Shown: positions 7,707 to 34,465 of the stretch, one piece after another
Numbering within the stretch: position 1 is the first letter of the stretch
How the letters are laid out: each line of letters starts with the position of its first letter
From: an uncultured Methylococcaceae bacterium
GTDB lineage: Bacteria > Pseudomonadota > Gammaproteobacteria > Methylococcales > Methylomonadaceae
Assembly (NCBI GenBank): GCA_903917345.1
Contig: CAIXAE010000045.1
Span: forward strand, 1-64,000
Length of the DNA: 64,000 nucleotides
Reading direction: 5' to 3'
Notes under the pieces: generated by a model
Databases searched by the model: none
What the model saw: the letters and a program-made list of their open reading frames with translations, nothing else
Told to the model about the DNA's origin: nothing
Translations under genes and position numbers: made by a program

Positions 7707-10208
7707 GTGTCAAAGAGTCAATCACTACCCAATTCAGAGCTCATTCAGCAAGCATGGCAGTTAAGCATTACTTTCATGCCCACATTCAGCCAAGCTGAAT
7801 CCACTATTCCTGAACCCATACTCGATAAAACCTTGGCATTATTTAATGCCTCTGCGCTCATAATCGTGGTTGACGGACAAACCATTACTCACGGAACGGC
7901 ACCCACCCAACAACAAACGACTATTTTATTATCCTGGTTGAGTGAACAAACCCATGATGCCGTCTATTGTTGCGACCACTTAGACGAACAATTCCCTGAC
8001 TTTACGCAATACCCTGATACTGCAACGGGCTTATTAGCCTTGGGTGTTTCAGCCACAATGGATAACTGCATCATCTGGCTACGCCATAAAGCCCCCAAAG
8101 GCCGAGCCTTAACGTGGTCAGAAACCGAAATACAGATCAGTTACCTCATTAATGCGTCTCTAAGTGAAGCGGTATCGCAAAAATCCTTAAGACTAAAAGC
8201 AATATCAGAACGGGACCGATTAAACTTTATTATCAACAATACGCCTGCTCTGATTGGCTATTGGGATGTTTATTTAATCAACCGATACTGCAATACAGCC
8301 TACTCAAAATGGTTCGGGGAATCGCCAGACACTATTCGCGGCAAACATATACGCCAAGTTTTGGGCGACGCGCTTTACCAGACTAATTTATCCCAAATTG
8401 AAGCTGTCATGCATGGCGAAGCGCAACTATTCGATCGTTATATAACAGATCAAAAGACGCATAAAACTATCCACACCCAACTTAGCTATATACCTGACAT
8501 AGTTAATGGACAGGTTAAAGGCTTTTATGTACTGGGTGTTGATGTAACCGATCAAGACCGCATAATAGATCTCAGTCTACAGAATACGAGCATTCTAAAA
8601 AGCATAAATAAAGGCGTGGTATTAACAAATGACAAGCATCAAGTCATCTATACCAATCCCGCTTTTGAAGAAATGACGGGGTATTCGCTCACCGACTTAT
8701 ACGGACACAGCTATGACATTTTAAAAGGCCCCAACAGTGACCCCGTAGAACTTGAACTCATTGAAAGGGCACTCACTACCCATCAAGATTATCAGGGCGA
8801 AATAGTCAACTATCGTAAAGACGGCAGTGAATTCTGGAATGAACTCAACATCAACCCTATTTTTGACAGACATCAAAACATCAGTCAATTTATCTACTTT
8901 CACCGTGATATTTGTAACCGTAAACGCTTAGAAAGTGAACTGAGTACCTCAGAAAATCAATTTAGATCATTAGCCAACTCAGCACCGGTACTGATCTGGC
9001 TAGCAGGGCTCGATAAGCTGTGTTATTGGTTTAATGATACCTGGCTCAGTTTTACAGGCCGCAGCATGGAAGAAGAAAATGGTAATGGCTGGGCTGATGG
9101 CGTACACCCAGAAGATTTTGAGCGCTGCTTAGATATCTACATCACACATTTTGATAAACGCCTGCCGTTTAGAATGGAATACCGTTTAAGACGCTATGAT
9201 GGCGAATACCGTTGGATAGATGACCATGGGGTACCCCGCTTTAACCATCAAGGTGAGTTTGAAGGCTATATCGGTTCATGCACGGATGTCACCGATATCA
9301 GAAACTCTAAAACAGCGAGTGATTTTTTTAATGTCTCTCATGAAATCATCTACAGCACCGATCTAAAAGGACATCTACTCGATGTTAACTCACGCTTCTT
9401 AGAGATAACCGGTTACAGCCGCGAAGAAGTGATCGGTAAAAATATTAATCTACTTAAGTCAGGCATCCAAGATCGTGATTTTTACGCTGAGATGTGGCAC
9501 ACACTGATTAAAGACGGATTTTGGAATGGTGAAATAACCAACATCAACAAAACGGGGCGATTCTACTCAGCCATCACCAGCATCAGTACCATCAAAGATA
9601 CCAGCGGCCAACCCATGCGTTATTTGGCTATTGCGAGTGACATTACCGCACTCGTAGAAAGTCGCGATCAATTAGAAAAGATCGCTTTTTATGACAATTT
9701 AACAAAACTACCTAATCGCGCCTTATTGATGGATCGATTAGAACAAGCCATGGTCAGGGTAAATCGTGAAGGTGGATTATTGGCCGTTTTATTTATCGAT
9801 TTGGATGGCTTTAAACAAATCAACGACAACTATGGTCACGACATGGGTGATAAAGTCTTAATCACTCTCGCTCATCGTATGAAAGCGGCCTTACGTAAAA
9901 CGGATTCCATCGGCCGTTTAGGCGGCGATGAGTTCATCGTAATACTCCAAGAATTATCAGAAGAAGACTTAGGTGAAACGCCTATAAATCATCTATTAGA
10001 AGCGTGCTCAACCCCGATCATCGAAGACCAATTAACACTCTGCGTTTCATCGAGTATTGGTGCCGCACTGTTTAGCAATCATCCTGCACACCAACACTTG
10101 GATAGTCATACACTCATCAAACAAGCAGACCAAGCCATGTATGTTGCTAAACAAGCGGGTAAAAACGGTTGTCACTATTTTAATGGTGAAGCGGACACAC
10201 ACGAGTAA
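7707..10208 (+). CDS. Diguanylate cyclase with truncated phytochrome-type PHY domain and four PAS domains
   Basis: This 833-residue soluble protein has residues 1-165 resembling the PHY domain of the phytochrome at 23725. Both share FN-A-S-x-I-I and C-(I/L)-I-W-L-R, and a final helix after W-S-(E/D)-x-E-I-Q. It lacks the phytochrome PAS-GAF module and the PHY tongue with PRxSF, so it should not bind bilin. Then come four PAS domains (about 170-285, 290-410, 420-535, 540-650) and GGDEF (660-825). The catalytic motif is intact at residues 739-743 and the RKTD inhibitory site lies upstream, so it should make c-di-GMP. The start is GTG, immediately after an in-frame TAA, with no clear ribosome site. 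It ends 8 bp before the next gene, so the two are probably co-transcribed. Confidence 0.9.
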   Translation: MSKSQSLPNSELIQQAWQLSITFMPTFSQAESTIPEPILDKTLALFNASALIIVVDGQTITHGTAPTQQQTTILLSWLSEQTHDAVYCCDHLDEQFPDFTQYPDTATGLLALGVSATMDNCIIWLRHKAPKGRALTWSETEIQISYLINASLSEAVSQKSLRLKAISERDRLNFIINNTPALIGYWDVYLINRYCNTAYSKWFGESPDTIRGKHIRQVLGDALYQTNLSQIEAVMHGEAQLFDRYITDQKTHKTIHTQLSYIPDIVNGQVKGFYVLGVDVTDQDRIIDLSLQNTSILKSINKGVVLTNDKHQVIYTNPAFEEMTGYSLTDLYGHSYDILKGPNSDPVELELIERALTTHQDYQGEIVNYRKDGSEFWNELNINPIFDRHQNISQFIYFHRDICNRKRLESELSTSENQFRSLANSAPVLIWLAGLDKLCYWFNDTWLSFTGRSMEEENGNGWADGVHPEDFERCLDIYITHFDKRLPFRMEYRLRRYDGEYRWIDDHGVPRFNHQGEFEGYIGSCTDVTDIRNSKTASDFFNVSHEIIYSTDLKGHLLDVNSRFLEITGYSREEVIGKNINLLKSGIQDRDFYAEMWHTLIKDGFWNGEITNINKTGRFYSAITSISTIKDTSGQPMRYLAIASDITALVESRDQLEKIAFYDNLTKLPNRALLMDRLEQAMVRVNREGGLLAVLFIDLDGFKQINDNYGHDMGDKVLITLAHRMKAALRKTDSIGRLGGDEFIVILQELSEEDLGETPINHLLEACSTPIIEDQLTLCVSSSIGAALFSNHPAHQHLDSHTLIKQADQAMYVAKQAGKNGCHYFNGEADTHE

Positions 10209-10216
10209 CACCCGCA

Positions 10217-13024
10217 ATGGAAAACCTAACCAGCCTTAAAAACTTTATTCCCCACGGTTATTGCTTATCTTGGAGCCCACTGCTACTAAAGCTACATGTA
10301 GTCTCCGATTTATTTATTAGCCTCGCGTATTTTTCAATCCTTATTACGCTCATATTTTTCATGGTCAAGCGTAAAGTCTTTGTCTTTCGCTGGTTAATCG
10401 GCCTCTTTGCCGCCTTTATTGTCAGTTGCGGCATCACTCATTTACTGTCACTCATCACGATCTGGTATCCCATCTATTGGATAGATGCATTATTTAAGAT
10501 AATTACAGCGGTTTTATCGATTATAACAGCGGTTTTAATGGTTAAAATTATACCTAAAGCAATGGCTTTGCCCTTAGCATTGCAAGAAAAACAACACCAA
10601 AATAAACACATCCTCAATAATATGCATCAGGGCATTGTACTGATGGATAGCCACCATAAAATCATTTACTGCAACCCCGCTTCTCAAAAGCTCACCGGTT
10701 ATCAGTCTAAAGAAATCCATGGTAAATCCTGCGAAATATTTCATGGACCGGACACAGATCAAGATCAGGTTAACCAACTATGGGCAGTCATGGAGCAACA
10801 ACAGCACTTTCATGGTGAGCTATTAAACTATCGTAAAGACGGTTCCGTATTTTGGAACGATCTACAAATGACACCTATACGCAACAGTCAGGGCGAAATA
10901 AACCAATACCTGTGCATCCAAACAGATGTGACTGAGCGCAAACAAAAAGAATTGCAGGTCATCCTATCTGAACAAGATTTTCAAGATTTAGCCAATTCAT
11001 CCCCCTCCATGATTTACTTAGTGGGCATTGATAAAAAGCCGACGTGGTTTAATGCCGCGTGGTTAAGATTTACCTGTCATAAGCTCGATCAAGAAACTTA
11101 CAACGTCTGGGAAAGTAACATACATCCAGAAGATTTTATGCGTTATACCGATGTTTTCCATACGCATTTTGATCAACGCTTACCGTTCCAAATCGAATAC
11201 CGAATGCAAACCAGCACTCAGGAATACCGTTGGATAGCGTGTAATTGCGTGCCTCGATTTAATTCCGATGGCGCATTTAAAGGTTACGTCTGTTATGCCA
11301 ATGATATAACTGACGCTAAAAACAGCGCAGTAGCCAATGATTTTTTTAACAGTTCGTACGAAATCATCTACAGCACTGATTTAGATGGCTTCATTCTGGA
11401 AGTCAATGACCGATTTTTACAAGTATCAGGCTATAACCGAGAAGAATTAATTGGCCGGCATATCCGCATCATTAAATCCGGCGTGCACGACAGTAAATAT
11501 TACAGAGCCATGTGGCAATCCCTACTGAGCCAAGGTTTTTGGTGTGGAGAAGTCACTAATCGTAGTAAAAAGGGTAACTTCTTCTCTGTGGTCAGTACCG
11601 TCACAACGATTAGAGATGAGCAACAGAACCCCATTCGTTATTTAGCGATCGCGAGTGACATTTCATCTGTGATAGAAAAACGACGTCAAATGGAACAGTT
11701 AGCCTATTACGACAACTTAACGGGCTTGCCCAATCGCTTACTGTTAAAAGATCGTTTGGCGCAAAACATGGCCAGAGTGCATCGAGAAGGCGGTTGTTTA
11801 GCGGTGGTCTTTATTGACTTAGACGGATTTAAAGCCATTAATGATAGCTTCGGGCATTTTATTGGGGATGAGTTTTTAATCGCCATTAGTCAGCATTTCA
11901 AACAAAGTCTGCGCGAAACCGATACGGTAGTCCGGATTGGCGGGGACGAATTTGTAGTTATACTTGCTGATTTAACTAACGAAGAGTCAGTTAAAATACC
12001 CATACAAAACTTATTAGAGGCCTGCCAAACGCCTATTAACATCAATCAACTGTCTTTAACGGTCTCTGCCAGCATGGGCTATAGCCTCTATAAAGGCGGA
12101 GCCGATGCAGGTGAAACTGATATTGACGAACTCATCAGGCAAGCCGACAAAGCCATGTATGTTATTAAACAATCCGGTAAAAATGGGGTGCATCGTTACG
12201 ATGAACAGATAGATACTCTAAATAATACCCGTACAGAAACCTTAAAGAATATTGAGTCTGGCTTAGCTCATGACGAATTTATCTTGTATTATCAACCCAA
12301 GGTAAACCTACATACCGGGGAATTAATCGGTGTAGAGGCCTTAATCCGTTGGCAGCATCCAGCACGTGGCTTATTACACCCTAAAGATTTTTTACTGTTA
12401 CTCGATAATCATCCGTTGGGCATAGAACTCGGTTACTGGGTATTAAATACCGCACTCAGCCAGATAGACGCATGGCAACGCCAAGGATTAAATATCGCCG
12501 TCAGTATCAATATTGACGCTCGTCAATTATATCAACAAGATTTTCTATCCAAAGTACGTACAGCATTGGCTCAATACCCACACTTTCTTAAAAACAGTTT
12601 GGAGTTTGAAATACTAGAATCCATCGCCCTACACGAAAGAGAATACAGCTACAGCGTGATAGAAGCCTGTAAAGAAATGGGGGTTAAATTTTCCTTAGAT
12701 GACTTTGGTACAGGCTACTCTTCCCTTACCTATCTGCGTCACCTACCGATCGATACGATTAAAATTGATCGTAGCTTTGTGGAATCACTGGACAACAACA
12801 GCAATGATTATTCAATTGTTAAAAATGTCATAGGATTGGTCAACAATATAGGCCATAACACCCTAGCAGAAGGGATAGAAACCGAAGAGCAAGGCAAAAT
12901 ATTATTAGATATGGGTTGTGAATTTGGTCAAGGCTTTGTGATCGCAAAACCGATGCCAGCCGAAGACATTGCGGTCTGGAAAAATACCTGGCAACTACCC
13001 GACAGTTGGAAAACAACAAAATAA
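10217..13024 (+). CDS. Ethylene-receptor-like membrane GGDEF/EAL protein
   Basis: This 935-residue protein starts with a hydrophobic domain (about 1-115, three membrane helices) that lines up with the ethylene-binding domain of plant ETR1 and cyanobacterial Etr1. ETR1 residues Asp25, Tyr32, Ile35, Ile62, Cys65 and His69 correspond at a constant offset of six to Asp31, Tyr38, Ile41, Ile68, Cys71 and His75 (ISLAYFS, FIVSCGITHL). ETR1 Pro36 is Leu42 here. Then follow a LOV-like PAS (130-245, Cys172 at the LOV cysteine position), two PAS domains (250-365, 370-490), GGDEF (motif 575-579, RETD inhibitory site) and EAL (EAL 707-709, DDFGTGYSS, AEGIET). Both catalytic domains look intact, so it could make or degrade c-di-GMP. 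Ethylene or copper binding is inferred from residues only. Confidence 0.92.
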   Translation: MENLTSLKNFIPHGYCLSWSPLLLKLHVVSDLFISLAYFSILITLIFFMVKRKVFVFRWLIGLFAAFIVSCGITHLLSLITIWYPIYWIDALFKIITAVLSIITAVLMVKIIPKAMALPLALQEKQHQNKHILNNMHQGIVLMDSHHKIIYCNPASQKLTGYQSKEIHGKSCEIFHGPDTDQDQVNQLWAVMEQQQHFHGELLNYRKDGSVFWNDLQMTPIRNSQGEINQYLCIQTDVTERKQKELQVILSEQDFQDLANSSPSMIYLVGIDKKPTWFNAAWLRFTCHKLDQETYNVWESNIHPEDFMRYTDVFHTHFDQRLPFQIEYRMQTSTQEYRWIACNCVPRFNSDGAFKGYVCYANDITDAKNSAVANDFFNSSYEIIYSTDLDGFILEVNDRFLQVSGYNREELIGRHIRIIKSGVHDSKYYRAMWQSLLSQGFWCGEVTNRSKKGNFFSVVSTVTTIRDEQQNPIRYLAIASDISSVIEKRRQMEQLAYYDNLTGLPNRLLLKDRLAQNMARVHREGGCLAVVFIDLDGFKAINDSFGHFIGDEFLIAISQHFKQSLRETDTVVRIGGDEFVVILADLTNEESVKIPIQNLLEACQTPININQLSLTVSASMGYSLYKGGADAGETDIDELIRQADKAMYVIKQSGKNGVHRYDEQIDTLNNTRTETLKNIESGLAHDEFILYYQPKVNLHTGELIGVEALIRWQHPARGLLHPKDFLLLLDNHPLGIELGYWVLNTALSQIDAWQRQGLNIAVSINIDARQLYQQDFLSKVRTALAQYPHFLKNSLEFEILESIALHEREYSYSVIEACKEMGVKFSLDDFGTGYSSLTYLRHLPIDTIKIDRSFVESLDNNSNDYSIVKNVIGLVNNIGHNTLAEGIETEEQGKILLDMGCEFGQGFVIAKPMPAEDIAVWKNTWQLPDSWKTTK

Positions 13025-13037
13025 CCGGACTAACCGC

Positions 13038-13619
13038 TTACGCCTGCTTCAATACTGATACAAACAACTCAAATGTTTTAAGTGCGTTATCGATAGCTTT
13101 AGCGCATTCTTCGGGTTGATCGGCTATGGATTCGATATAGCTGATAAATTCGACCCACTTACTCGGTGTCGCTTCCCCATAACCATAAAAGAATCTAGCC
13201 CCATTTGCCTCAGTTAAGCCGTGGTGCTTTTCTAACGCCCTCGCAATATGTTGTCCTCCTAAAGTAGAACCCTCCACCACATATAACACACCGGTTAAAG
13301 CCCCGATGCTATTAATATCAGGGCTTAACATTAATTGTATGGGTGAGGCAGGTCTGCTTAAATAAGCTAGATCTTGATGAATTAATGGCGCTTTTAGGCG
13401 ACTATCATAATCAAAATCCACACCGTGTTCAGTGATAAAGCGGGTGATTTTCAACTCTAAATCTTGATAAAGCAGCGCATACGCTTCCAGCAGTTTATGG
13501 TAGTTTTCAATTGTATAATCAGCCTCCATTAAACCCTTCAATAATGGCAAGTGATTAAGCTGCACATGCATAGCATGCGTAGCCTCACGTAATTTATCTT
13601 TTAAACCGTTAGTTGTCAT
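13038..13619 (-). CDS. bphO: Biliverdin-forming heme oxygenase
   Basis: The 193-residue protein matches the heme oxygenase family in length and motifs. His18 in REATHAMHVQ is at the proximal heme-ligand position, followed by a distal-helix stretch GVLYVVEGSTLGGQHI and FFYGYGE. Family members open heme to biliverdin, CO and iron. Bacterial homologues next to phytochromes supply their chromophore, and a bacteriophytochrome gene lies about 10 kb away (23725). The gene is convergent with the ethylene-receptor-like gene and 29 bp upstream of the end of the 1365-residue gene, on the same strand. Iron acquisition is an alternative role, but there is no heme-uptake gene nearby. Confidence 0.92.
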   Translation of the reverse strand: MTTNGLKDKLREATHAMHVQLNHLPLLKGLMEADYTIENYHKLLEAYALLYQDLELKITRFITEHGVDFDYDSRLKAPLIHQDLAYLSRPASPIQLMLSPDINSIGALTGVLYVVEGSTLGGQHIARALEKHHGLTEANGARFFYGYGEATPSKWVEFISYIESIADQPEECAKAIDNALKTFELFVSVLKQA

Positions 13620-23158: not shown

Positions 23159-23724
23159 AAAGCGCCTTTAAAAATATGAATTATGGGATGGTTAGTGCAA
23201 AAACCAAACCACAAAGACCTTTACAAACTTAATGAAAATAAGGCCTTGTTAAAACTTATCCTTACTCCGTTTTATGGATGCTTACTGAAATAAGCTCAGG
23301 CCATTACCAAAGTAAATAGCTGATTTGTAGTTTTAATCTGCAATAAAGTTGATGTGGGTATTAACATTAAGACTATCCAATTGATGTTGGCGATAAAAAA
23401 GTATTTTCGCAACAGCTTTCACACTATGAGCACAGACTAATGAACATTAAATCAATACATTGATCGAATTCGCACTAAAACAGTCAGTTATTTGCTTTAT
23501 TATTGTGCAAGGCAAATGACATACGACATGTACTCTCAAAATATTTCATATAACATAAGTGAAACGGATAATGCCTCCTATTCAAACGATCAATATCTTG
23601 ATATAAGGCGTATCTTACAAACTAATTTAACTAATAAGCACAGGTTTATAGCTTATGTTCCCTCTAATATGCAATGGCACATGGCAGACTAAGATCAATG
23701 CTGTTGTATTTATAGGCTGTTACC
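23159..23724. other. Divergent intergenic region upstream of the phytochrome gene
   Basis: A 566-bp AT-rich gap between the CheW fusion (minus) and the phytochrome (plus). An open frame at 23492-23692 has low-complexity, Tyr/Asn-rich content and no recognisable domain, so I do not call it. GGCGATAA at 23389-23396 resembles a sigma-28 minus-10 box, but the paired minus-35 is poor. Nothing else stands out. Confidence 0.6.
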
Positions 23725-26700
23725 ATAACTCGTACTAGTGATTCAGCGTTAGAAGAAGCACTACACGCTTGTGAAGCTGAACCCATTCACCAATTAGGCA
23801 CTATACAACCGCATGGCGTGGCACTGGTTTTAAACCCAAACGCGGAATACAGCATTATTCAAGCCAGTGAAAACTTAGCGACGCTGTTAGCGTGTTCTGC
23901 TGAGCAGGCCCTTCATAAATCGTTAGCAACTCTGCTGGGAAAAGAAACTTCCCAACAAGTTATCCAATTAATAGCCACCGCACGTCAGTCACATTCACAA
24001 ACAGCCTTCGGCGTTATTGACTATAAGACCCAAGACTTTACTAAGCTAGACGCCCATCTTTATATTTCGGATAGTTTTCCGGTTTTAGAATTATCCAACG
24101 ACTCCGGTTTGGTAGATTTAGAAGACTTAACCGAACAATGGCTAAAAAACCAAGAACGACTTCTAGATAATGAGGGTCATAAAAATTCACAGGCGTATTT
24201 TGAGCAAATAACCCACTTAGTGAGAACGATAACGGGCTATGACAATGTAATGATCTACAAGTTTGATAAAAACTGGGATGGTCAGGTGATAGCCCAAAGC
24301 AAAATAGAAGATGCCACTGATTATTTGGGCACTCATTTTCCCGCTAGCGACATTCCCGCCCAAGCCCGTGCGTTATATACGCGTAACTTAGTTAGAGTTG
24401 TCAGTGATGTGGATGCGCCTGCCGTTTCTTTTGTGCCGATGCTTAATCCAGAAACACATGCTCCTTTGGATATGAGTTTATCTTCATTACGCAGTCTATC
24501 GCCCATTCATATAGCGTATTTACGCAATATGGGTACTGCGGCAACCATGACTATTTCGTTACTAGAAGACGGAAAGCTGTGGGGATTAATCGCATGCCAT
24601 CATCATAGCCCTAAAAGAATTTCTGTGGCGCTACGCAAGATGACACATTTATTAAGTCGGCAAATTTCGACTTTATTAACTAAGCATGAGTTAAATGCCC
24701 AACTTGACATTATGCGTAATGCCTTAGCACTCAATTCTGATCTGTTACCCGCATTCAGCAATCTTACCCCCGATATTTCGACAGCTTTACTTGCTAAACT
24801 CATGAAAGTCTTTAATGCATCTGGCATTATTATGGTGATAAAGGGGGAACTTTTTGTTGCGGGTTTGACCCCTAACAAAACCCAGATCAAACAATTGCTC
24901 GCCGGTTTAAGTGCCCAATCCCTTGAGTCCCCCTATTTTACTCAGCAACTTTCTAATCACTTAAGTGAGGCCAGTACCTATCAAGATAAGGTGGCCGGCT
25001 TATTACTTATAAAACTATCTAGCTCACTACAAAACTGCTTAATTTGGTTACGCCAAGAAAAACCACGTACCATTAATTGGGCGGGGACTTATACACAAGG
25101 CTTACAACAAAACCCTGATGGTCACTACCATCTTAGCCCTAGGGAATCATTTGAAGTCTGGTCAGAAACTTGGCGCGGGCGCTGTGAGCCTTGGTCTGAC
25201 CACGAAATCCAGCTCGCTCAATCATTGAACAAATCACTCACTGATACCCTGCGCAATCAGACGTTAGAAAATCAAATACATGAAACTGCGCATAATCGTA
25301 ATGCACTTTTAAATGTCATTGGGGGAGGTATTTCTGTGACCGATGCCCATAGAATGATTACCTATATCAATAAAGAGTTCGAAGTGTTAACAGGCTATAC
25401 ACAGGCTGAAGTCGTTGGTAAAACCTTTACCTTTCTGCAAGGCCCTGACACGGATCCACAGCAAATTGAAAATATCAGCACTGCCTTAGCGGCGCTAAAG
25501 CCCTTTTCGGGCGAGATTTTAAATTATCGAAAAGACGGTTCTATTTTTTGGAATGAGCTCAATATCACCCCTATATTTGATACTTACGGCGAGTTATCGC
25601 ATTTTCTGGGTATACAACGGGATGTAACGGATCGTAAACAATCGGCCTATCTGGATACCTTAACGGGCTTACCTAACCGACTACTATTAATGGATCGATT
25701 GGCTCAGGGCTTAGAGAAAATTAATCGACATGGCGGCTGCATCGCATTACTGTCTATTAATTTGGACGGCTTCAAAACCATTAACAATCATTATGGTCAC
25801 GAGGTGGGCGATGCCTTTTTAGTGGCTATTAGTCAGTTAATGAAACATTCCCTACGCGAAACGGACACCCTCGTGCGCGCTGAAGGAGATGAGTTTTATA
25901 TTTTATTAGATGACTTAGCCTGCGAACTCGATGCAGAATCGCTCATTAAACCTGTGTTAGACATCTTTCTGTCACCGACGGATATCAAAAATCTGGTACT
26001 CCAAATGACAGCTGGTATCGGTATCAGCTTTTATAATAAAACGTCTACATGCCAAGACGTCACTGTTGACACCTTGATTAGACAGGCAGATCAGGCCATG
26101 TATGTGGCTAAACAATCCGGTACAAATGGTTTTCACCGCTTTGATAGCCATATAGATCATTTAAATGTGACCCGTAATGAAATTGTAAATGCTATTCGTA
26201 TAGGTTTACAACAAGAACAGTTTGAGCTCTATTACCAACCCAAAGTTAGTATGCGTAGCGGTAAAGTACTGGGTTTTGAAGCCTTAATACGTTGGCATAA
26301 ATCTGGACCGGACCCCTTACCGCCCTCTGTCTTTATGCCCATGATTCAATACCACCCCCTAGGTATAGAAATAGGAAACTGGGTGCTTAACAGTGCATTA
26401 GCACAATTAAACCAATGGCAAGAACAAGGTTTAGAAACCACGCTCAGCATTAATGTGGATGCGCGACAATTACACCAAACCAACTTTGTTGCTAATTTAA
26501 ATGCGGCTATCAACCATTATCCACACTACATACCCAATAGCTTAGAGCTTGAGATCTTAGAAACTAATGAGTTGGCGAGCCGAATTAAGGCTGAACAAGT
26601 GATTGAATCATGTCGCGAGTTGGGCGTTGAATTTGCCTTAGATGATTTTGGGACGGGCTATTCTTCTATCACTTATCTAAAACAACTCCCTATTAAAACC

Positions 26701-26967
26701 TTAAAAATTGATCGTAGCTTTGTCGCCGGCATTACTCACACGGATCAAGACTATAAGTTATTGTCTAATATTATTCAGTTAGCAAATGATATGGGTAAAC
26801 AAGTAATTGCAGAAGGCGTCGAAACCATTGAGCAAGGTGAATTATTAATCCTATTGGGTTGTGAACATGCCCAAGGCTATGCGATTGCAAAACCCATGCC
26901 CGCATCAAACGTATTACCCTGGTTAAAAGAATGGCGCCCCTACTCCGCTTGGTCTAACAATAGTTGA
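23725..26967 (+). CDS. bphP: Bacteriophytochrome with GGDEF and EAL output (start codon abnormal)
   Basis: Layout over 1080 residues: phytochrome PAS, GAF, PHY, LOV-like PAS, GGDEF, EAL. The biliverdin cysteine is Cys16 in ACEAEPIHQLGTIQPHG. GAF has PASDIP and LSPIHIAYLRNMG; the PHY tongue has PRESF. The LOV-type cysteine in the fourth sensor domain is Phe. GGDEF reads EGDEF (720-724) with an RETD site upstream; EAL (852-854) with DDFGTGYSS looks intact. No ATG, GTG or TTG lies between the in-frame TAG at 23713 and Cys16. I placed the start at ATA 23725, which gives a typical phytochrome N-terminus and has AGG 8 bp upstream. The next usable start, GTG 23818, would delete the chromophore Cys. 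ATG 23698 is in frame but is followed by that TAG at codon 6. Mutation or sequence error is possible. Confidence 0.88.
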   Translation: MTRTSDSALEEALHACEAEPIHQLGTIQPHGVALVLNPNAEYSIIQASENLATLLACSAEQALHKSLATLLGKETSQQVIQLIATARQSHSQTAFGVIDYKTQDFTKLDAHLYISDSFPVLELSNDSGLVDLEDLTEQWLKNQERLLDNEGHKNSQAYFEQITHLVRTITGYDNVMIYKFDKNWDGQVIAQSKIEDATDYLGTHFPASDIPAQARALYTRNLVRVVSDVDAPAVSFVPMLNPETHAPLDMSLSSLRSLSPIHIAYLRNMGTAATMTISLLEDGKLWGLIACHHHSPKRISVALRKMTHLLSRQISTLLTKHELNAQLDIMRNALALNSDLLPAFSNLTPDISTALLAKLMKVFNASGIIMVIKGELFVAGLTPNKTQIKQLLAGLSAQSLESPYFTQQLSNHLSEASTYQDKVAGLLLIKLSSSLQNCLIWLRQEKPRTINWAGTYTQGLQQNPDGHYHLSPRESFEVWSETWRGRCEPWSDHEIQLAQSLNKSLTDTLRNQTLENQIHETAHNRNALLNVIGGGISVTDAHRMITYINKEFEVLTGYTQAEVVGKTFTFLQGPDTDPQQIENISTALAALKPFSGEILNYRKDGSIFWNELNITPIFDTYGELSHFLGIQRDVTDRKQSAYLDTLTGLPNRLLLMDRLAQGLEKINRHGGCIALLSINLDGFKTINNHYGHEVGDAFLVAISQLMKHSLRETDTLVRAEGDEFYILLDDLACELDAESLIKPVLDIFLSPTDIKNLVLQMTAGIGISFYNKTSTCQDVTVDTLIRQADQAMYVAKQSGTNGFHRFDSHIDHLNVTRNEIVNAIRIGLQQEQFELYYQPKVSMRSGKVLGFEALIRWHKSGPDPLPPSVFMPMIQYHPLGIEIGNWVLNSALAQLNQWQEQGLETTLSINVDARQLHQTNFVANLNAAINHYPHYIPNSLELEILETNELASRIKAEQVIESCRELGVEFALDDFGTGYSSITYLKQLPIKTLKIDRSFVAGITHTDQDYKLLSNIIQLANDMGKQVIAEGVETIEQGELLILLGCEHAQGYAIAKPMPASNVLPWLKEWRPYSAWSNNS

Positions 26968-27026: not shown

Positions 27027-30000
27027 ATGTTTGATCAAATAGTATCTTTTCTCACCGGCGATGCCGGCTGGATGCCCCATGGTTTTTGTATACGCTGGAC
27101 GCCTAGCTTAGTCTGGATGTACGCCTTATCAGATAGCTTAATTACGCTCGTTTATTATGCCATCCCCATCACCTTGGCTTTTCTGGTCATGCGCAGTAAA
27201 GAGCAGCGCTTTAAGACGATGTTCGTGCTGTTTTGTGTGTTTATTGGGCTTTGTGGGACCTCACATTTACTATCGATAGTCTTACTCTGGCAACCCCTTT
27301 ACTGGTTAGACGCCAGTGTAAAACTCATAACCGCCCTGTTCTCAGTAGCCGCATTAATCTCACTACTGCACTATAAACAGCAAATAATTAAAATAATAGA
27401 CATTGCTGATGACTATAAACAGACGGAGTTAGTGCACTTTATTCTAAACAAGACCCCTTTCTTATTAGCCTATTGGGATAAGAATCAAATCAATCAATAC
27501 AGTAACTCAACGTTTGATCTTTGGTTTAACAAATCAAATACAAAAGTGTCCGGCAAGCACATAGAAAAAGTTATCGGCAAGGAACTGTATACGCAAAACT
27601 TACCCCTGATTAAAAAGGTTCTGGACGGATTACCGCAAGAGTTTATCCGTCCCATGCAGAATCGGAACACGGGGGAAAATATGCTCATTCAGATTAGCTA
27701 TATCCCCCATATTATTGCGCACCAAAAAGTAATCGGCTTTTATATGATAGGGACAGACATCTCTATGCATGAACAGCTCATTGAAAATAAATTACAGAAC
27801 ACCGCCATCTTTGAGACTTTATCTAGAGGCATCATAATCACTGGCCCCGATAAACGCATCACTTACGTCAATAAAGCGGTAACAAGGAATACAGGGTATT
27901 CCTTACACGATATGAAAGGTCAATTCTGTTCCATTTTACAAGGACCAGACACGGATCCCCAGACCGTCATAGAAATGCGAGAGGCCCTTAATAAACAGCA
28001 AGCCTTTAACTGTGAAATTCTTAATTACCGAAAAGACGGTGTTAAATTTTGGAATGAACTAAGTATCGCACCTATTTTTGATCGACAAGGTCAGTTGACA
28101 CAGTTTGTATCCTTCCAGACCGATATTACTGAACGAAAACTTCAAGAACAGCAAAGTGCCTTTATGAAGGCTATTATTGCCAGATCCCCAGACCTTATTT
28201 CTATGGCTGATATGCAAGGCAATATTCGCTATATGAACATGGCGGGTAGCGATATGGTGGGCTTAACTAACCAGCAAGCCAACACATTACACATTAAAGA
28301 CTTCCTTTTTAAGAAAGATTTTGCGGATATGACGAATAACATTATTCCGATTGCCTTAACAGATGGTATCTGGCAAGGAGAAACCTATCTACGCCATCAA
28401 GATGGCCATAAAATTCCTACCCAACAAGTTATTCTCTCTCATGTTAATGATCAAAACATAACACCTTTTATTTCTACCATCATGAAAGACATCTCCCTCG
28501 CTAAACAACATGAGCAAGACTTAATGATGGCGGTGGAAAAAGCAAAACAGTTTGCACAGGCTAAGTCTGAGTTTTTAAGCAATATGTCTCACGAGATCCG
28601 TACCCCAATGAATGCGATTTTGGGCTTCTCTGATCTGGCGTTATTAGAGCACTTCCCTAGCAAGGCACAGGACTACTTTACTAAAATTAATGTAGCCTCG
28701 ACCCATTTGCTAGGAATTTTGAATGATATTTTGGATTATTCAAAATTAGAAGCGGGGGCCACACAGTTATCACTGACGCCTTTTAATCTACAGGCTATTA
28801 AGCAACACTTATTACTGCTTTTTACCGATATCAATGAAGCTAACAACAATCTCTTTACGATTACGTTTGCCCCTGATGTGCCAGATGGCTTGATAGGCGA
28901 CTCACTCAGAATCCAGCAGATACTCATCAATCTAGTAGCCAATGCCAGTAAGTTTACGCATAACGGCTCGGTTAATTTGCATATCAGTCTGCAAGAAATG
29001 CTATCTGATCAAGTCCGATTGCAGTTTAGTGTAAAGGATACCGGCATTGGTATGACGAAAGAAGAGATTGCCAAAATTTTATCCCCGTTTACACAAGCGG
29101 ATGAAAGTATTAGTCGACAATTTGGGGGGACTGGACTGGGGTTATCGATTAATGAACGATTAATGGGCTTAATGAACAGTGAATTAAAAATCGACAGTGA
29201 ACCGGGGGCCGGAAGTACATTCTATTTTGATTTATGTTTAAAGCCTTGTGCTGAGGAAATAATCGACAAGGACAAGGACAAGGACAAGGACAATTATACC
29301 GTCTTTCCTGATAACAAACAAGTACTTATTGGCGCAAATATACTATTAGTAGAAGACAATATCTTTAATCAACAAGTCATAGCGGCATTTCTTAAGTTAG
29401 AGAAAATCACTTATAAAATAGCTCAGAATGGTGCGGATGCCCTAAAGGCTTTGGAGAAAGAAGACTTCGATTTAGTATTAATGGACATCAATATGCCGGT
29501 GATGGATGGATATACCGCGACGCGTGAGATTAAGCGCCAAGCCCAATATAGCGCTCTCCCCATTATTGCCCTATCCGCTGCGGTTACTGAAGATGAACAA
29601 CAAGAATCATTAGCGGCCGGCATGGTAGGCTTTATCGAAAAACCAATCATGCCTGCCAAATTAATCGCCACATTATGTCAACATTTAACCCCTAAAACCC
29701 TAATCAACGAACAGAAATCCACTCTTAAGGCCGAGCAAAGCACCTTCGACGAGACCGAAACGTCAGCGCTGCCCTTTCAACTAGATATTAGCTATTTAAA
29801 AGCACTGGTCGGTGATGATGCGGCTACGATAAGCACCTTTTTAAGTTACTTTATGGTCGCCGGTACCGAATCGAGTCTAGCCATCATTGCCGCTATACCT
29901 GCCGGTTTATGTCAAGATGCCCGTAAAGCCGCCCATAAATTAAAACCCTCCGCTTACAGTATTGGCGCTACACAATTGGGTGATGTTTGTGCCGAAGTAG

Positions 30001-30107
30001 AAGCCGCCGGTAAAGCCGATGATATTGATACGCTTGAAGCCCTATTACCCAAGTTTGAACATGAATGGGCTTTGGTTAAAGCCTATATTCAAGCGCGGCC
30101 TACATGA
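27027..30107 (+). CDS. Ethylene-receptor-like hybrid histidine kinase with Hpt domain
   Basis: This 1026-residue protein begins with a three-helix membrane domain aligning with ETR1 at a constant offset of 11: Asp36, Tyr43, Ile46, Pro47, Ile73, Cys76 and His80 for ETR1 Asp25, Tyr32, Ile35, Pro36, Ile62, Cys65 and His69 (YYAIP, LCGTSHLL). Then PAS (135-245), LOV-like PAS (255-375; Cys301 in FCSILQGPDTD), PAS (380-500), HisKA with His522, HATPase (GGTGLGLSI), a receiver with Asp820, and an Hpt domain with His970 (AAHKLKPSAYS). All phosphorelay residues look present, so the relay can run His to Asp to His inside one protein. A Lys-Asp linker made by (GACAAG)4 joins kinase and receiver. The stop overlaps the next gene's start (ATGA), showing translational coupling. 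Confidence 0.93.
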   Translation: MFDQIVSFLTGDAGWMPHGFCIRWTPSLVWMYALSDSLITLVYYAIPITLAFLVMRSKEQRFKTMFVLFCVFIGLCGTSHLLSIVLLWQPLYWLDASVKLITALFSVAALISLLHYKQQIIKIIDIADDYKQTELVHFILNKTPFLLAYWDKNQINQYSNSTFDLWFNKSNTKVSGKHIEKVIGKELYTQNLPLIKKVLDGLPQEFIRPMQNRNTGENMLIQISYIPHIIAHQKVIGFYMIGTDISMHEQLIENKLQNTAIFETLSRGIIITGPDKRITYVNKAVTRNTGYSLHDMKGQFCSILQGPDTDPQTVIEMREALNKQQAFNCEILNYRKDGVKFWNELSIAPIFDRQGQLTQFVSFQTDITERKLQEQQSAFMKAIIARSPDLISMADMQGNIRYMNMAGSDMVGLTNQQANTLHIKDFLFKKDFADMTNNIIPIALTDGIWQGETYLRHQDGHKIPTQQVILSHVNDQNITPFISTIMKDISLAKQHEQDLMMAVEKAKQFAQAKSEFLSNMSHEIRTPMNAILGFSDLALLEHFPSKAQDYFTKINVASTHLLGILNDILDYSKLEAGATQLSLTPFNLQAIKQHLLLLFTDINEANNNLFTITFAPDVPDGLIGDSLRIQQILINLVANASKFTHNGSVNLHISLQEMLSDQVRLQFSVKDTGIGMTKEEIAKILSPFTQADESISRQFGGTGLGLSINERLMGLMNSELKIDSEPGAGSTFYFDLCLKPCAEEIIDKDKDKDKDNYTVFPDNKQVLIGANILLVEDNIFNQQVIAAFLKLEKITYKIAQNGADALKALEKEDFDLVLMDINMPVMDGYTATREIKRQAQYSALPIIALSAAVTEDEQQESLAAGMVGFIEKPIMPAKLIATLCQHLTPKTLINEQKSTLKAEQSTFDETETSALPFQLDISYLKALVGDDAATISTFLSYFMVAGTESSLAIIAAIPAGLCQDARKAAHKLKPSAYSIGATQLGDVCAEVEAAGKADDIDTLEALLPKFEHEWALVKAYIQARPT
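29265..29292 (+). repeat. (GACAAG)4 in-frame hexanucleotide repeat
   Basis: Four GACAAG units plus a partial fifth encode a charged (Asp-Lys)n linker between the HATPase and receiver domains. Copy-number change would alter linker length without shifting the frame. Confidence 0.85.
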
Positions 30108-32188
30108 GTCAGTTAACTACAATGTTCAGTCACGTATTTAAACGACGCAACTTAGATGAAGATAAACTTGAGGACAGTGAATTACGCTGGAAATTCGCCC
30201 TAGAAGGCGCCGGTGATGGGGTATGGGATTGGAATATAGCAACAGATCAAGCGGTGTATTCCACCCGTTGGAAGGAGATGTTGGGCTACGCTGAAGACGA
30301 CATTCTACCCACTAATGATGAATGGAAGCGTCGTATTCATCCCGAGGATCGAGCTATGGTGGGGGACACCATGCAAACTTATCTTAAAGGCACGATCCCC
30401 AGTTACCGAGTGGAGTATCGCTTAAAATGTAAAGACGACTCCTATAAATGGATATTGGGACGCGGCATGATCGTTAAGCGTGATCCGCAAGGTTACCCTC
30501 TGCGCATGATAGGCACCCATACCGATATTACAACCCTCAAAGAAGCGGAACACATCTTATTACGCGACAAAGAAAACGCAGCACTGATTGACTCCATTAA
30601 AACAGACAAGCTCACTAAGCGCACTCAAGAATTGGCGCTTATCACCCAGCGCTTTCAAACCACTTTTGAGTACGCCCCTATCGGGGTAGTGAATTTTTCA
30701 TCCGATAGTCGCATAGAAAACGTCAATCAACGTTTTTGTCATTTTCTGGGTTATAAGCGAGATGAATTACTGGGCATGAACTTGGCACAATTAATTTATA
30801 GTGATGACCAGGCGAATGCCTTTGATAACATCAACCAACTACTCACCTCAGAGTGGTCAAACTTTGATATAGAGCACCGATATGTTCGTAAGGATGGCTT
30901 ACTTGTTTGGGCGCACATCACCGTTAAGCTGATGAGTACCGAAGATGGGCAACCGGATTACTTTATCAAAATTGTTGAAGATATCACCGAGCGAAAAAAT
31001 AAAGATGCGCAATTAGTAGCGGCTAAAGAACATGCTGAACAGTTAGCGAAAACAAAAACACTGTTTTTAGCTAATATGTCACATGAGATTCGTACGCCTA
31101 TGAATGCGATCTTAGGGTTTTCTGATTTAGCGTTATTAGAACCTTTCCCCAGTAAAGCCCAAGCCTATTTCAGCAAAATCAATGAAGCCTCGAAACATCT
31201 GTTATCCATTTTAAATGATATTTTGGATTTCTCAAAAATGGAAGAAGGCGCTACCCAACTTAAACTGGCTCCCTTCAATCTACACGTTATTGAACAGCAT
31301 TTAATGCTCTTATTTACAGATATCATTGAGAGCAAGAACAACCAATTAACGATTACTTTTTCACCAGATGTCCCTAACTTACTGATAGGGGATGCGCTTA
31401 GAATTCAGCAAGTCCTCATTAACTTATTGGCCAACGCGTGTAAGTTTACGCAAGATGGTTCGATCAATCTAACCATCAATGTACTTGAAAGACACGCAGG
31501 TCAAGCTCGCTTACTCTTTAAAGTAACAGACTCGGGCATTGGCATGTCGGCAGAAGAGATTGCCAAAATATTAACGCCCTTTACACAAGCGGATGAGAGC
31601 ATTAGTCGACGCTATGGTGGTACGGGTCTTGGTTTATCAATATGTGATCGCTTGCTCAATTTAATGGGCAGTGAGTTACGTATAGACAGTACGCTGGATG
31701 TGGGCAGTCAATTTTATTTTGAGCTGTGTCTAGACGTGTGTACTGATGAACAGATCGCCGAAGAATCCGCTAAAACTGTAACTACCCCTGCCCCCGTTAT
31801 CAGTGATAAAGAGGCACTTATAGGGTCACACTTATTACTCGTTGAAGATAATGTATTCAATCAACAAGTCATACAGGCGTTTCTTAAGTTACAAGGCATC
31901 ACATTTGTAACAGCCAATAACGGCGTAGAAGCCTTAGAAGAAATTGAAAAAGCAGACTTTGATCTGGTATTAATGGACATCAATATGCCCGTGATGGATG
32001 GCTATACCGCCACCCGTGAGATTAAACAACAAGCGCGTTATGCCGATTTACCTATTATCGCCCTCTCTGCAGCGGTAACCCCCGATGAGCAAGAAGACTG
32101 TATAGCGGCGGGCATGATTGATTTTATAGAAAAACCCATCGTCCCCGCCAAGCTCATTAGCGTTCTGAATAAATATTTAAAAAAATAA
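30104..32188 (+). CDS. PAS-PAS hybrid histidine kinase with receiver
   Basis: This 694-residue soluble protein has a PAS_3-type domain (about 25-150, EGAGDGVWDWNI, IHPEDR), a second PAS (about 185-305), HisKA with His327 in MSHEIRTPMNA, HATPase (GGTGLGLSI) and a receiver with Asp625 (LMDINMP). Its kinase and receiver closely resemble those of the upstream ethylene-receptor-like kinase, pointing to duplication. It lacks an Hpt, so it may pass phosphate to the Hpt (His970) of its neighbour. The start overlaps the upstream stop by 4 bp, so the two are probably made together and may form heteromers. Confidence 0.93.
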   Translation: MSQLTTMFSHVFKRRNLDEDKLEDSELRWKFALEGAGDGVWDWNIATDQAVYSTRWKEMLGYAEDDILPTNDEWKRRIHPEDRAMVGDTMQTYLKGTIPSYRVEYRLKCKDDSYKWILGRGMIVKRDPQGYPLRMIGTHTDITTLKEAEHILLRDKENAALIDSIKTDKLTKRTQELALITQRFQTTFEYAPIGVVNFSSDSRIENVNQRFCHFLGYKRDELLGMNLAQLIYSDDQANAFDNINQLLTSEWSNFDIEHRYVRKDGLLVWAHITVKLMSTEDGQPDYFIKIVEDITERKNKDAQLVAAKEHAEQLAKTKTLFLANMSHEIRTPMNAILGFSDLALLEPFPSKAQAYFSKINEASKHLLSILNDILDFSKMEEGATQLKLAPFNLHVIEQHLMLLFTDIIESKNNQLTITFSPDVPNLLIGDALRIQQVLINLLANACKFTQDGSINLTINVLERHAGQARLLFKVTDSGIGMSAEEIAKILTPFTQADESISRRYGGTGLGLSICDRLLNLMGSELRIDSTLDVGSQFYFELCLDVCTDEQIAEESAKTVTTPAPVISDKEALIGSHLLLVEDNVFNQQVIQAFLKLQGITFVTANNGVEALEEIEKADFDLVLMDINMPVMDGYTATREIKQQARYADLPIIALSAAVTPDEQEDCIAAGMIDFIEKPIVPAKLISVLNKYLKK

Positions 32189-32191
32189 CAG

Positions 32192-32262
32192 CCCACGGTT
32201 TACATGTGGGATCTTAGCAAGTGAATTGAGTCACTTGCTAAGTCTTAATACCCACTATTAAG
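32192..32262. terminator. Triple-hairpin bidirectional terminator
   Basis: Three inverted repeats fill the gap between convergent genes: CCCAC/GTGGG (32192-32210), a perfect 12-bp stem CTTAGCAAGTGA with a 6-base loop (32213-32242), and CTTAATA/TATTAAG (32244-32262, touching the siaC stop). The middle stem is strong but has only a short T-run either side. It most likely ends transcription from both sides. Confidence 0.6.
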
Positions 32263-32647
32263 CTGTTTCTGAGATCGGCACCGCATTAAATTCTAATTCA
32301 AGAAATTCTTCTTTAATATCATAGCCAAACTCTAAGCTGGTTAAGTCTTCTTCATCATGGTACCAGTTTAATATGACCGTGTTTCCATTTTGTCCGGCTT
32401 CGTTTAGCAAGCCAAATAAACGAAATAACATTTTAGTCGCCGCACTATTAAAGTAAGTTAAATCGACATCAAAGGTAATGGTTTCATCTGAAATGGAATC
32501 TAAATAAGAACTCACCTTCTCTAATAAAGGATTAAAAAAACTGGCTGCATTCTCAGGATAAGCTTCACCTTTTAAACTCAAATGATGCGTGGCAAAGTTG
32601 AAATTAACTTCGGGTGTTAATGAGGTACGAGCAAAATAATAAATCAT
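32258..32647 (-). CDS. siaC: SiaC-family regulatory phosphoprotein (DUF1987)
   Basis: The 129-residue protein matches SiaC in length, with a small alpha/beta fold resembling anti-sigma antagonists. Ser68 in LTYFNSAATK lies where Thr68 of Pseudomonas SiaC is phosphorylated. In that system the unphosphorylated form binds and activates the diguanylate cyclase SiaD. No siaD follows here, but several GGDEF proteins are encoded nearby. It is the last gene of a three-gene minus-strand set, 8 bp after siaB. Confidence 0.85.
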   Translation of the reverse strand: MIYYFARTSLTPEVNFNFATHHLSLKGEAYPENAASFFNPLLEKVSSYLDSISDETITFDVDLTYFNSAATKMLFRLFGLLNEAGQNGNTVILNWYHDEEDLTSLEFGYDIKEEFLELEFNAVPISETA

Positions 32648-32655
32648 AGTGATTC

Positions 32656-33225
32656 CTAGATAGTTACTTTAAGAAAAAAATGTGCGAGTTCAACACCCTC
32701 CACTCTACATTCAGCAGGAGTAATTGAATATTCGATGGGTTTACTGGCATCCCTTGCAATGGTTAATAAGCCTAAGCCTGCGCCTTTACTGATGGCGTCT
32801 TCTGTTTCGTGTTGGTCATTTTTAAGCTGTTCACGATAGGCCTTTCTAATATCTTCCATGGTCATATTAAGTAAAGGGTCTAGCTTGGTTTTAATGTGTT
32901 CTATATATTCACTTTTAATTAAGTTGCCGCACACAATAAAGTAGCTATCCTCTATTGTACCCACTGCAATAGCCGCTGATTTCCCTTCATCAACTGACGA
33001 TATATCCGGCGAATAATGCAAAGCGTTTTGTGTCATTTCAATAAAGCTAGAAAATAACTTTTTCGCCTTCTGAGGCGAGTCCACGTGTGCATCTTCCTTT
33101 AAGCGTTGCTTTAAAGAATCACCCATTGTAAGAATGACGTTCTGGGTAATCTGACCGTTGTAATAAAATAAGATGCCGTTTAGATCGGCATTATCCCGAA
33201 ACATATTAAAAATATTTAATTCCAT
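32656..33225 (-). CDS. siaB: SiaB-family protein kinase
   Basis: I chose ATG 33225 (189 residues) because it is preceded by GGAACGG, starts 10 bp after the siaA stop, and gives a typical family N-terminus (NIFNMFRDNADLNGILFYY). The open frame extends to 33348 but would overlap siaA by over 100 bp. ATP-binding features are the N-box EMTQNALHYSP and G-box GAGLGLLTIARDA. In the Pseudomonas precedent SiaB phosphorylates SiaC and SiaA removes the phosphate. The gene order siaA-siaB-siaC is kept. Confidence 0.85.
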   Translation of the reverse strand: MELNIFNMFRDNADLNGILFYYNGQITQNVILTMGDSLKQRLKEDAHVDSPQKAKKLFSSFIEMTQNALHYSPDISSVDEGKSAAIAVGTIEDSYFIVCGNLIKSEYIEHIKTKLDPLLNMTMEDIRKAYREQLKNDQHETEDAISKGAGLGLLTIARDASKPIEYSITPAECRVEGVELAHFFLKVTI

Positions 33226-33235
33226 GACCGTTCCA

Positions 33236-34465
33236 TTAAACTCTAAACCCAAAAAAGCAGACATCATCTCGTCTGCGCTGAGACCCTTGATATTCATAAA
33301 AAGTATCCAAGAATAAGGTGCATTGTTGTGACATAGGCTTTTCAACATGTGCTAACAGTTGATTTAAGGTGCGCTGTTTACCAAATGCAATATTGCGGGG
33401 CCCACCGATCTGATCAATAATCCCATCAGTGGTGATGTACACACATAACCCTTCTGTCAAAGGCACTGTTTTATTAGTCCACTTAAAATCCATCGGTGTA
33501 TCCACATAGCCCACACCTTTTTTATCGCCCTCGATAATCGTGGTACTTTTATCGGCTGGGTTAATCAGCAACAACGGTGTTTTGGCCCCCGCGAACGTTA
33601 TTTGCTGGGCATTTAAATCGATCCAACAAAACGCCGTATCCATACCGTCATCAGAGTCATTACTGTCAATATCAATCCATTCATCTTTTTTTTGATTCGA
33701 TGCAACACTGATTTGGCCCAAGGCCGTTTTTACTTTTTGATTCATTGATATCAGTGCAGTCGCTGGATCATGGCGATTATCTTCTAATAAAATATGATCT
33801 AAAAAAGAGGCCATGATCAAGGTCATGAAAGCGCCAGGTACGCCATGCCCCGTACAATCGATCAAGGCCAGAAAGAAACCATCTGCAAACTTCTTACAAA
33901 AATAGTAATCACCACCGACTTTGTCACGTGGCTCCCAATGAATAAAATAATCCTGCATGCAATCACGCATGTCTTCACGAGAAGATCTCAAAAACGAGGT
34001 TTGAATCACACTGGCGTAATTAATACTTTCCATCACGATGCGATTTTTCTCTGCTTGCATCTCAGAAATCTTCCGCATAACCGCTTCACCAGTCCCTACA
34101 CCTAAATAACGCCCTTGTTCATCGGTGATAATAAAACCACTCTTTAATGCGGTACTGCCTTCTTCAGCGACTTTAAACGAGAGATCTTGTATCGACATGT
34201 TCTCACTGACTATGAGCGAGACGGGCTCAATAAACTCAATACAGGTTTTTTTGGCGTACAGTTCTTTACGAAAGGGTTTTGATATTTCGTCCATATAGGT
34301 ACTGCGATTGATTAAACCTTTGGGTAGGCCCTCATCCACCACGGGTAAAGAAATGATGCCCGCATTTTCAGATAACACGAGGAGTACATCGTTTCCATAG
34401 AAACTGGGTGAAACACTAGGACAACTGATCAGTAATTCTCGTACGGTGTTTTGACTTTCAAACAT
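33236..34465 (-). CDS. siaA: SiaA-like PP2C/SpoIIE phosphatase with N-terminal CBS-like domain
   Basis: This 409-residue protein has residues about 1-130 resembling a CBS pair (VLSENAGIISLPVVDEGLPKGLINR; FIITDEQGRYLGVGTGE). A short coil and a SpoIIE-type phosphatase follow (about 150-405; RDKVGGDYYFC, ALIDCTGHGVPGAFMTLIM, metal-binding Asp in each). The family's Pseudomonas member has a membrane HAMP input instead; here the input is soluble and may bind adenosyl ligands. It heads the siaABC set and should dephosphorylate SiaC. Ligand binding by the CBS part is inference. Confidence 0.88.
   Translation of the reverse strand: MFESQNTVRELLISCPSVSPSFYGNDVLLVLSENAGIISLPVVDEGLPKGLINRSTYMDEISKPFRKELYAKKTCIEFIEPVSLIVSENMSIQDLSFKVAEEGSTALKSGFIITDEQGRYLGVGTGEAVMRKISEMQAEKNRIVMESINYASVIQTSFLRSSREDMRDCMQDYFIHWEPRDKVGGDYYFCKKFADGFFLALIDCTGHGVPGAFMTLIMASFLDHILLEDNRHDPATALISMNQKVKTALGQISVASNQKKDEWIDIDSNDSDDGMDTAFCWIDLNAQQITFAGAKTPLLLINPADKSTTIIEGDKKGVGYVDTPMDFKWTNKTVPLTEGLCVYITTDGIIDQIGGPRNIAFGKQRTLNQLLAHVEKPMSQQCTLFLDTFYEYQGSQRRRDDVCFFGFRV

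Follow-up and report, generated by a model that had tools for sequence, protein, structure and literature searches.

In the ethylene receptor ETR1, the copper site is made up of Asp25, Cys65 and His69 (PMC12643061), and Lys91 is predicted to contact Asp25 and to have a role in receptor output (PMC11819568). A bacterial counterpart, AzoEtr1 of Azospirillum brasilense, has been demonstrated to bind ethylene and is the sole such gene of strain Sp 7 (PMC11819568). Ethylene in soils has an inhibitory and often toxic effect on methanotrophs, methane monooxygenases co-oxidize it to epoxyethane, and Methylohalobius crimeensis answers it by raising epoxide-handling proteins (PMC11507031). The available text of this last article, on methanotrophs and ethylene, does not contain the word 'receptor'; that of PMC10452086 has only Methylobacterium, in its references, and that of PMC12810054 lacks 'ethylene'. 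Among titles and abstract openings, with subscription journals mostly outside, no literature linking methanotrophs (Methylobacter, Methylomonas, Methylococcus, MmoS) to ethylene receptors was found. Nor did the available literature on ethylene-binding domains (EBDs) with LOV or GGDEF domains yield a recognizable match to the same idea, the GGDEF query being too broad to prove absence. ETR1-type kinases are already known; the interest here lies in their setting, an order of methanotrophs with many sensors of this type.

The window, that is, the whole stretch of 64,000 nucleotides analysed, comes from a genome (G000) with one AMO/PmoA-family gene (C23:4753-5466, E 5.6e-130), a family of copper enzymes; a search of 61 genomes, the window genome included, matched the family in 49. 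The nearest named relatives of the ETR1_N domain of P0001, the sensor kinase studied here, are found at nine loci in all, from Methylobacter psychrophilus Z-0021, from metagenome-assembled genomes (MAGs) of Methylobacter, Methylococcaceae, Methylococcales and Methylovulum, and from a MAG that bears the name Tolumonas and may be misbinned. The Methylobacter psychrophilus contig (L044) is identical over its first 17,000 bases to a contig (L063) of G034, a genome that shares the window's genus. Because of the AMO/PmoA gene, the relatives of the domain and the identity of these two contigs, the host is assigned to the Methylobacter-lineage methanotrophs of Methylococcales.

The original prediction had placed in P0001 an ETR1-like domain with all seven ethylene-receptor sites on a full phosphorelay kinase. 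Indeed, D36, Y43, I46, P47, I73, C76 and H80 are all present in the translation and correspond to ETR1 D25, Y32, I35, P36, I62, C65 and H69 with an offset of 11 throughout; by alignment, the helix-3 lysine equivalent to ETR1 K91 is also present, as K99. The Pfam profile PF25487 matches ETR1_N with E 3.6e-26 and 91.7 bits against a curated cut-off of 27, and the Pfam domain order is ETR1_N (28-122), three PAS, HisKA (512-577), HATPase (624-738), receiver (772-882) and Hpt (951-1005). HisKA, HATPase, Response_reg and Hpt each score above their own Pfam cut-off, and all the catalytic motifs of the predicted kinase were found: H-box SHEIRTP at 521, N-box at 633, G1 at 671, LMDINMP of the receiver at 818 and AHKLK of Hpt at 969, with His522 (kinase), Asp820 (receiver) and His970 (Hpt) as the phospho-sites. 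Since the kinase boxes, the receiver Asp and the Hpt His are all there, the relay looks complete. An AlphaFold model of the domain made with nine homologous rows (mean pLDDT 76.9, pTM 0.58) has long helices at 26-56, 61-86 and 92-136 and places D36, Y43, I46 and P47 on helix 1, I73, C76 and H80 on helix 2 and K99 on helix 3, and hydropathy is maximal at 37-55, 67-85 and 96-114, with a weaker maximum at 28-46. The predicted helices and the hydropathy together point to an N-terminus of three transmembrane helices. A PDB sequence search with the ETR1_N domain up to E 10 gave no solved relative, and Foldseek with the domain model gave no PDB match at E 0.001 or better.

Table 1. Features of the window discussed in the text, with coordinates and strand.
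Feature	Position	Strand	Basis or remark
Partial PHY, no GAF match, three PAS, GGDEF	7707..10208	+	8 bases upstream of P0006
P0006, first ETR1-like gene: ETR1_N, three PAS, GGDEF, EAL	10217..13024	+	
Heme oxygenase	13038..13619	-	genome's only PF01126 match; between the two PHY/ETR1_N pairs
Bacteriophytochrome-type PAS-GAF-PHY-PAS-GGDEF-EAL	23716..26967	+	59 bases upstream of P0001
P0001, whole sensor kinase	27027..30107	+	1026 aa; Pfam domains and motif scan
ETR1_N domain of P0001 (PF25487)	27108..27392	+	profile search, residues, AlphaFold model
LOV-like PAS of P0001	27801..28151	+	PDB sequence search; best match 6rhg, E 5.4e-26
P0003, second hybrid kinase: two PAS, HisKA, HATPase, receiver	30104..32188	+	

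By tblastn, the P0001 domain matches a plasmid locus of Azospirillum brasilense Sp 7 (36.3% identity, E 7e-18), a sequence similarity far above chance, and this locus has the same residue string, DYIPICHK, as P0001. Judged by sequence, P0001 is a true member of the ETR1_N family, and among its bacterial relatives is a domain whose ethylene binding has been measured. Its domain shares 25.9% identity with that of Arabidopsis ETR1 (112 columns) and 32.2% with that of Azospirillum, and in all 26-47% with the sequences compared; the D, C, H and K sites are nonetheless intact. All seven sites (DYIPICH) are intact in 97 of the 131 ETR1_N reading frames of the fetched loci, a number that includes four fragments and one gene counted twice (L044 = L063). 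In the cleaned set, 88 of 125 domains of the order and 14 of 18 others have all seven residues, and 37 of the 125 from Methylococcales lack at least one, so that retention of the seven sites in P0001 is typical of the family and nothing special. The protein counts cover the fetched loci, some ETR1_N copies from the order-wide genome search lying outside them, and omit L001-L023, L053-L055 and L083 as repeats of other loci or unrelated.

For the tree and for the analyses of conservation and of D25 and K91, 143 of 151 domains were used, four identical and four fragment rows being removed. Among 101 columns of the 143 domains, H69 ranks 1 in conservation, C65 5, Y32 7, I35 11, I62 13, D25 16, P36 18 and K91 21. 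K91 is missing in 12 of the 13 domains without D25 and in 10 of the 130 domains with it; once the tree is allowed for, the association comes down to four independent pairs with a median p of 1, and joint loss of the two residues is suggestive only. It would fit the D25-K91 contact described for ETR1 (PMC11819568). DYISICH, with Ser at the P36 position, was found in 8 of the 143 domains and with both output types, GGDEF-EAL (L032, L112, L138) and kinase (L069, L072, L173, L174, L136); seven of the eight sit in two fully supported clades of the domain tree.

The tree (144 rows, 115 columns) was built by quick search with SH-aLRT as its only support measure and resolves relationships to a limited degree, 66 of its 141 inner branches being open. 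The P0001 domain lies, on a long branch, within a methanotroph clade of 15 rows (SH-aLRT 99), in which a paralogue on contig C10 of the same genome is its sister (SH-aLRT 86), a join flagged as a possible artefact of long branches. The P0006 domain belongs to a separate methanotroph clade of 41 rows (SH-aLRT 95). The domain of Arabidopsis ETR1, the only plant row, groups with two rows of the cyanobacterium Acaryochloris (SH-aLRT 84). There was no sign in this tree that the window domains are unrelated to ethylene receptors, and the likeness to plant receptors that had been pointed out is not supported as a special plant link, the P0001 domain being in a methanotroph clade and ETR1 with cyanobacteria. 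Direct plant origin of the P0001 domain was rejected on the tree, within the reach of its one plant row. Recent tandem duplication of P0001 and P0006 was likewise rejected, as the two domains are 34.8% identical and fall in two supported clades. Outputs are mixed in the P0001 clade, with GGDEF-EAL in L045, L046, L048, L052 and L118 and kinase-receiver in the window and nine others, and on the best tree kinase and c-di-GMP outputs must have replaced one another 12 times or more (129 labelled rows).

ETR1_N was found in 74 of 151 Methylococcales genomes sampled (73 above the cut-off), with a maximum of six per genome, in 72 of the 132 good-quality genomes of the order and in 26 of its 44 genera. 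The class sample gave 14 of 274 genomes (10 above the cut-off), three of the 14 being members of the order. With these three removed, the counts above the cut-off are 7 of 271 for the class, a set that may still hold order members without an ETR1_N match, and 73 of 151 for the order (Fisher p ~7e-31, kinship and genome size ignored). ETR1_N is enriched in Methylococcales. Within it the distribution is uneven: the domain is carried by 15 of the 35 genomes that represent the window's genus, its own among them, and in the set of relatives by only two of eight families, f1 and f4. Besides the two copies in the window, the same genome has a third at C10:68591; the protein encoded there shares 56% identity with P0001 across 888 residues.

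The presence of two such receptors with different outputs in one window had been called unusual. The difference in output is common, as 21 of the 31 genomes with at least two copies carry both kinase and GGDEF/EAL outputs (counted in fetched loci, some copies lying outside). The uncommon feature is the spacing: two copies within ~17 kb occur, among the matches listed, only in the window genome and in G146. The latter, a genome with six ETR1_N domains, has two tandem EBD kinases ~4 kb apart (C1:2477561-2481856). In P0006 the seven-site string reads DYILICH, with Leu42 at the P36 position, the sole such case in the 131 reading frames. This matches a P36L change, which we take to be that of the tomato Never-ripe allele, and by this analogy P0006 may be ethylene-blind.

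P0003 starts with a 4-base overlap with the P0001 stop, and the two proteins share 66% identity over ~400 residues in their kinase-receiver parts. In Methylobacter psychrophilus and in G018, the gene order is hybrid kinase, EBD kinase, receiver-kinase (in overlapping frames) and REC-GGDEF. By analogy, the REC-GGDEF neighbour in these two is the best hint that the relay may end at c-di-GMP, the messenger that P0006-type (GGDEF/EAL) proteins would themselves make or break. No REC-GGDEF gene lies beside P0001 at the window locus. Directly downstream of 78 EBD kinases, in which one gene is counted twice (L044, L063), are a kinase in six cases, a receiver in four and REC-GGDEF in two, and in 57 the downstream gene was absent or not recognized by the window-derived domain queries, nine of the kinases being at a contig edge. 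Adjoining the P0001 operon, SiaC-family, DUF6272 and SpoIIE genes stand in a row at 32258-34465 (-), an arrangement that resembles the SiaABC switch, by which Pseudomonas controls a diguanylate cyclase. Elsewhere in the window, a gene at 13649-17746 (-) encodes a fusion of periplasmic binding domains (NMT1/THI5-like and SBP_bac_3) with GAF-PAS-GGDEF-EAL, and its product is a putative solute-binding c-di-GMP enzyme. An 873-aa protein (20537-23158, -) combines, unusually, Cache-type matches with a following CheW and has no MCP signalling match, and a TPR protein with Glyco_transf_41, of the O-GlcNAc transferase family, is encoded at 3083-5785.

Immediately upstream of both P0001 and P0006, and in the same orientation, lies a gene with a PHY domain. 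The bacteriophytochrome-type frame upstream of P0001 is open from its first position (stop at 23713) and has no ATG, GTG or TTG until the GTG at 23818, so that the conserved CEAEPIHQLGTIQPHG stretch at its N-terminus, which holds the presumed biliverdin cysteine, precedes every standard start. The PHY fragment upstream of P0006 spans profile positions 28-115, and similar fragments occur in G017 and G019, which hints at a stable family of phytochrome derivatives that carry no pigment. No ETR1_N was found in the fetched stretch near these relatives (L084, L085), and the P0006 relatives of the same two genomes (L068, L067) start near contig ends, which puts their upstream neighbours out of view. 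Heme oxygenases make the phytochrome pigment biliverdin. PHY occurs in 30 of the 151 Methylococcales genomes, in 24 of them together with ETR1_N. A conserved operon of ethylene receptor and phytochrome was rejected as a general rule, since only the window genome among these 24 has the two within 5 kb, a comparison of positions that includes two ETR1_N matches of G069 located separately; a search of 61 relatives agrees in giving no general PHY/ETR1_N neighbourhood.

One PAS of P0001 is LOV-like. The canonical LOV motif is GxNCRFLQ. The best PDB match of this PAS, 6rhg, carries GRNCRFLQ, and many of the 60 matches listed are named phototropin, aureochrome or blue-light photoreceptor. The motif in P0001 is GQFCSILQ, in which Cys301 and the first core Gln are kept and the flanking Asn and Arg are lost; further along, both core Asn and the second core Gln are kept as well. 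P0006 likewise has one PAS with its best PDB matches among LOV-type proteins (GRNCRFLQ in the top row), with the Cys kept and the flanking Asn and Arg lost. PAS domains of both proteins also match PDB 3ewk ('Sensor protein'; E 1.4e-20 for P0001, 3.9e-21 for P0006), which we take to be the methanotroph copper-switch sensor MmoS; on this ground identity with MmoS was considered and set aside. A canonical motif (GKNCRILQ) was seen in one of the 131 EBD reading frames, L042:13448-16186 (G026), whose product is a candidate fused receptor for ethylene and blue light.

The reading favoured here, with somewhat better than even confidence, is that P0001 serves its methanotroph host as a membrane-bound, probably dimeric hybrid histidine kinase that depends on Cu(I) to sense ethylene. 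Two residues of helix 2, Cys76 and His80, would hold the copper, with Asp36 of helix 1 and Lys99 of helix 3 keeping them in place, and ethylene on the copper would alter the helix bundle and, through the three PAS domains, the kinase. Phosphate would then pass from His522 to Asp820, to His970 of Hpt and on to separate receivers. The relay probably feeds c-di-GMP, with attachment or swimming as the likely end point. The likely reason for such sensing is that ethylene would compete with methane at the particulate methane monooxygenase and become toxic epoxyethane. Binding of copper and of ethylene by P0001, the direction of its response and its downstream partner we infer from sequence.

The same site could instead serve to sense copper, its Cu(I) occupancy at the D/C/H site setting kinase activity, and ethylene would have no part in it. 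Such a role would make sense in a bacterium with a copper-dependent main enzyme, and the host and 48 of its 60 relatives have the AMO/PmoA family. The family, however, is also found in cyanobacteria, Azospirillum and other genera, which to our knowledge are not methane oxidizers, and a consistent ETR1_N/pmo neighbourhood was not seen, the nearest listed pairs being ~22 kb (G035) and ~43 kb (G046) apart. Although the conserved site is that of Cu(I) in ETR1, Asp25/Cys65/His69 (PMC12643061), AzoEtr1 binds ethylene (PMC11819568) and the Cu(I) Kd of ETR1, ~1.3e-15 M, fits a cofactor better than a sensed pool (PMC12643061), which makes copper sensing rather unlikely. It is quite unlikely that ETR1_N is now mainly a membrane anchor or dimerization module and that the PAS domains do the sensing. 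Three PAS, one of them LOV-like, do follow ETR1_N, P0006 has Leu at P36, and the domains of the order that lack at least one of the seven residues are those 37 of 125; but a mere anchor would hardly retain buried polar D, C, H and K, all of which P0001 keeps at 26-47% identity.

A local module for light and gas, in which the phytochrome would read red light, the LOV-like PAS flavin redox or blue light and the N-terminal domain ethylene, all leading to c-di-GMP, draws on the PHY-domain genes adjoining both P0001 and P0006 and on the genome's only heme oxygenase gene between them. It has a precedent in SynEtr1, which senses ethylene and light (PMC11819568, PMC10452086). However, the phytochrome frame is without a standard start before its pigment cysteine, the LOV-like PAS lacks the Asn and Arg on either side of its cysteine, and because PHY and ETR1_N are neighbours in one of 24 genomes of the order, the module stays a rival, and a very unlikely one.

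Taken more broadly, and held tentatively at somewhat less than even confidence, Methylococcales may possess an ethylene-sensing network of ETR1-type receptors, often several in one genome and at most six. With outputs by phosphorelay and c-di-GMP, it would detect a poison of methane oxidation and adjust attachment, movement or detoxification. In the window it would be wired beside bacteriophytochrome-type genes and a heme oxygenase, so that light and ethylene would be read together. Methanotrophs are among the main biological checks on the release of methane. Should ETR1-type receptors be present in about half of the order's genomes, methane oxidation may be subject to ethylene of plant or microbial origin as a signal, beyond its action as a poison.

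Among known systems, Arabidopsis ETR1 resembles P0001 in having an ethylene-binding domain, a kinase and a receiver, with the seven residues at the offset of 11, but has GAF in place of PAS and no Hpt. SynEtr1 (UirS) of Synechocystis also has an ethylene-binding domain on a phosphorelay kinase, combined with light sensing (PMC11819568, PMC10452086); its phytochrome-like domain is within the protein, whereas for P0001 the phytochrome is a separate adjoining gene and the fused PAS is LOV-like. Like P0001, AzoEtr1 has at its N-terminus an ethylene-binding domain of three helices in which these seven residues and the lysine of helix 3 are present, followed by PAS and histidine kinase, and its receiver gene directly downstream is counted as a further likeness (PMC11819568). 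It differs in its length of 525 aa, in its single PAS, in lacking a fused receiver and Hpt, and in being 32% identical in the domain; its host is a plant-associated bacterium and that of P0001 a methanotroph. The Methylobacter psychrophilus protein (L044:6822-10889) lies in the same domain clade as P0001 and has a LOV-like PAS and the order HisKA-HATPase-REC-Hpt, but is ~1356 aa long from stop to stop against 1026 for P0001, and is followed by receiver-kinase and REC-GGDEF genes.
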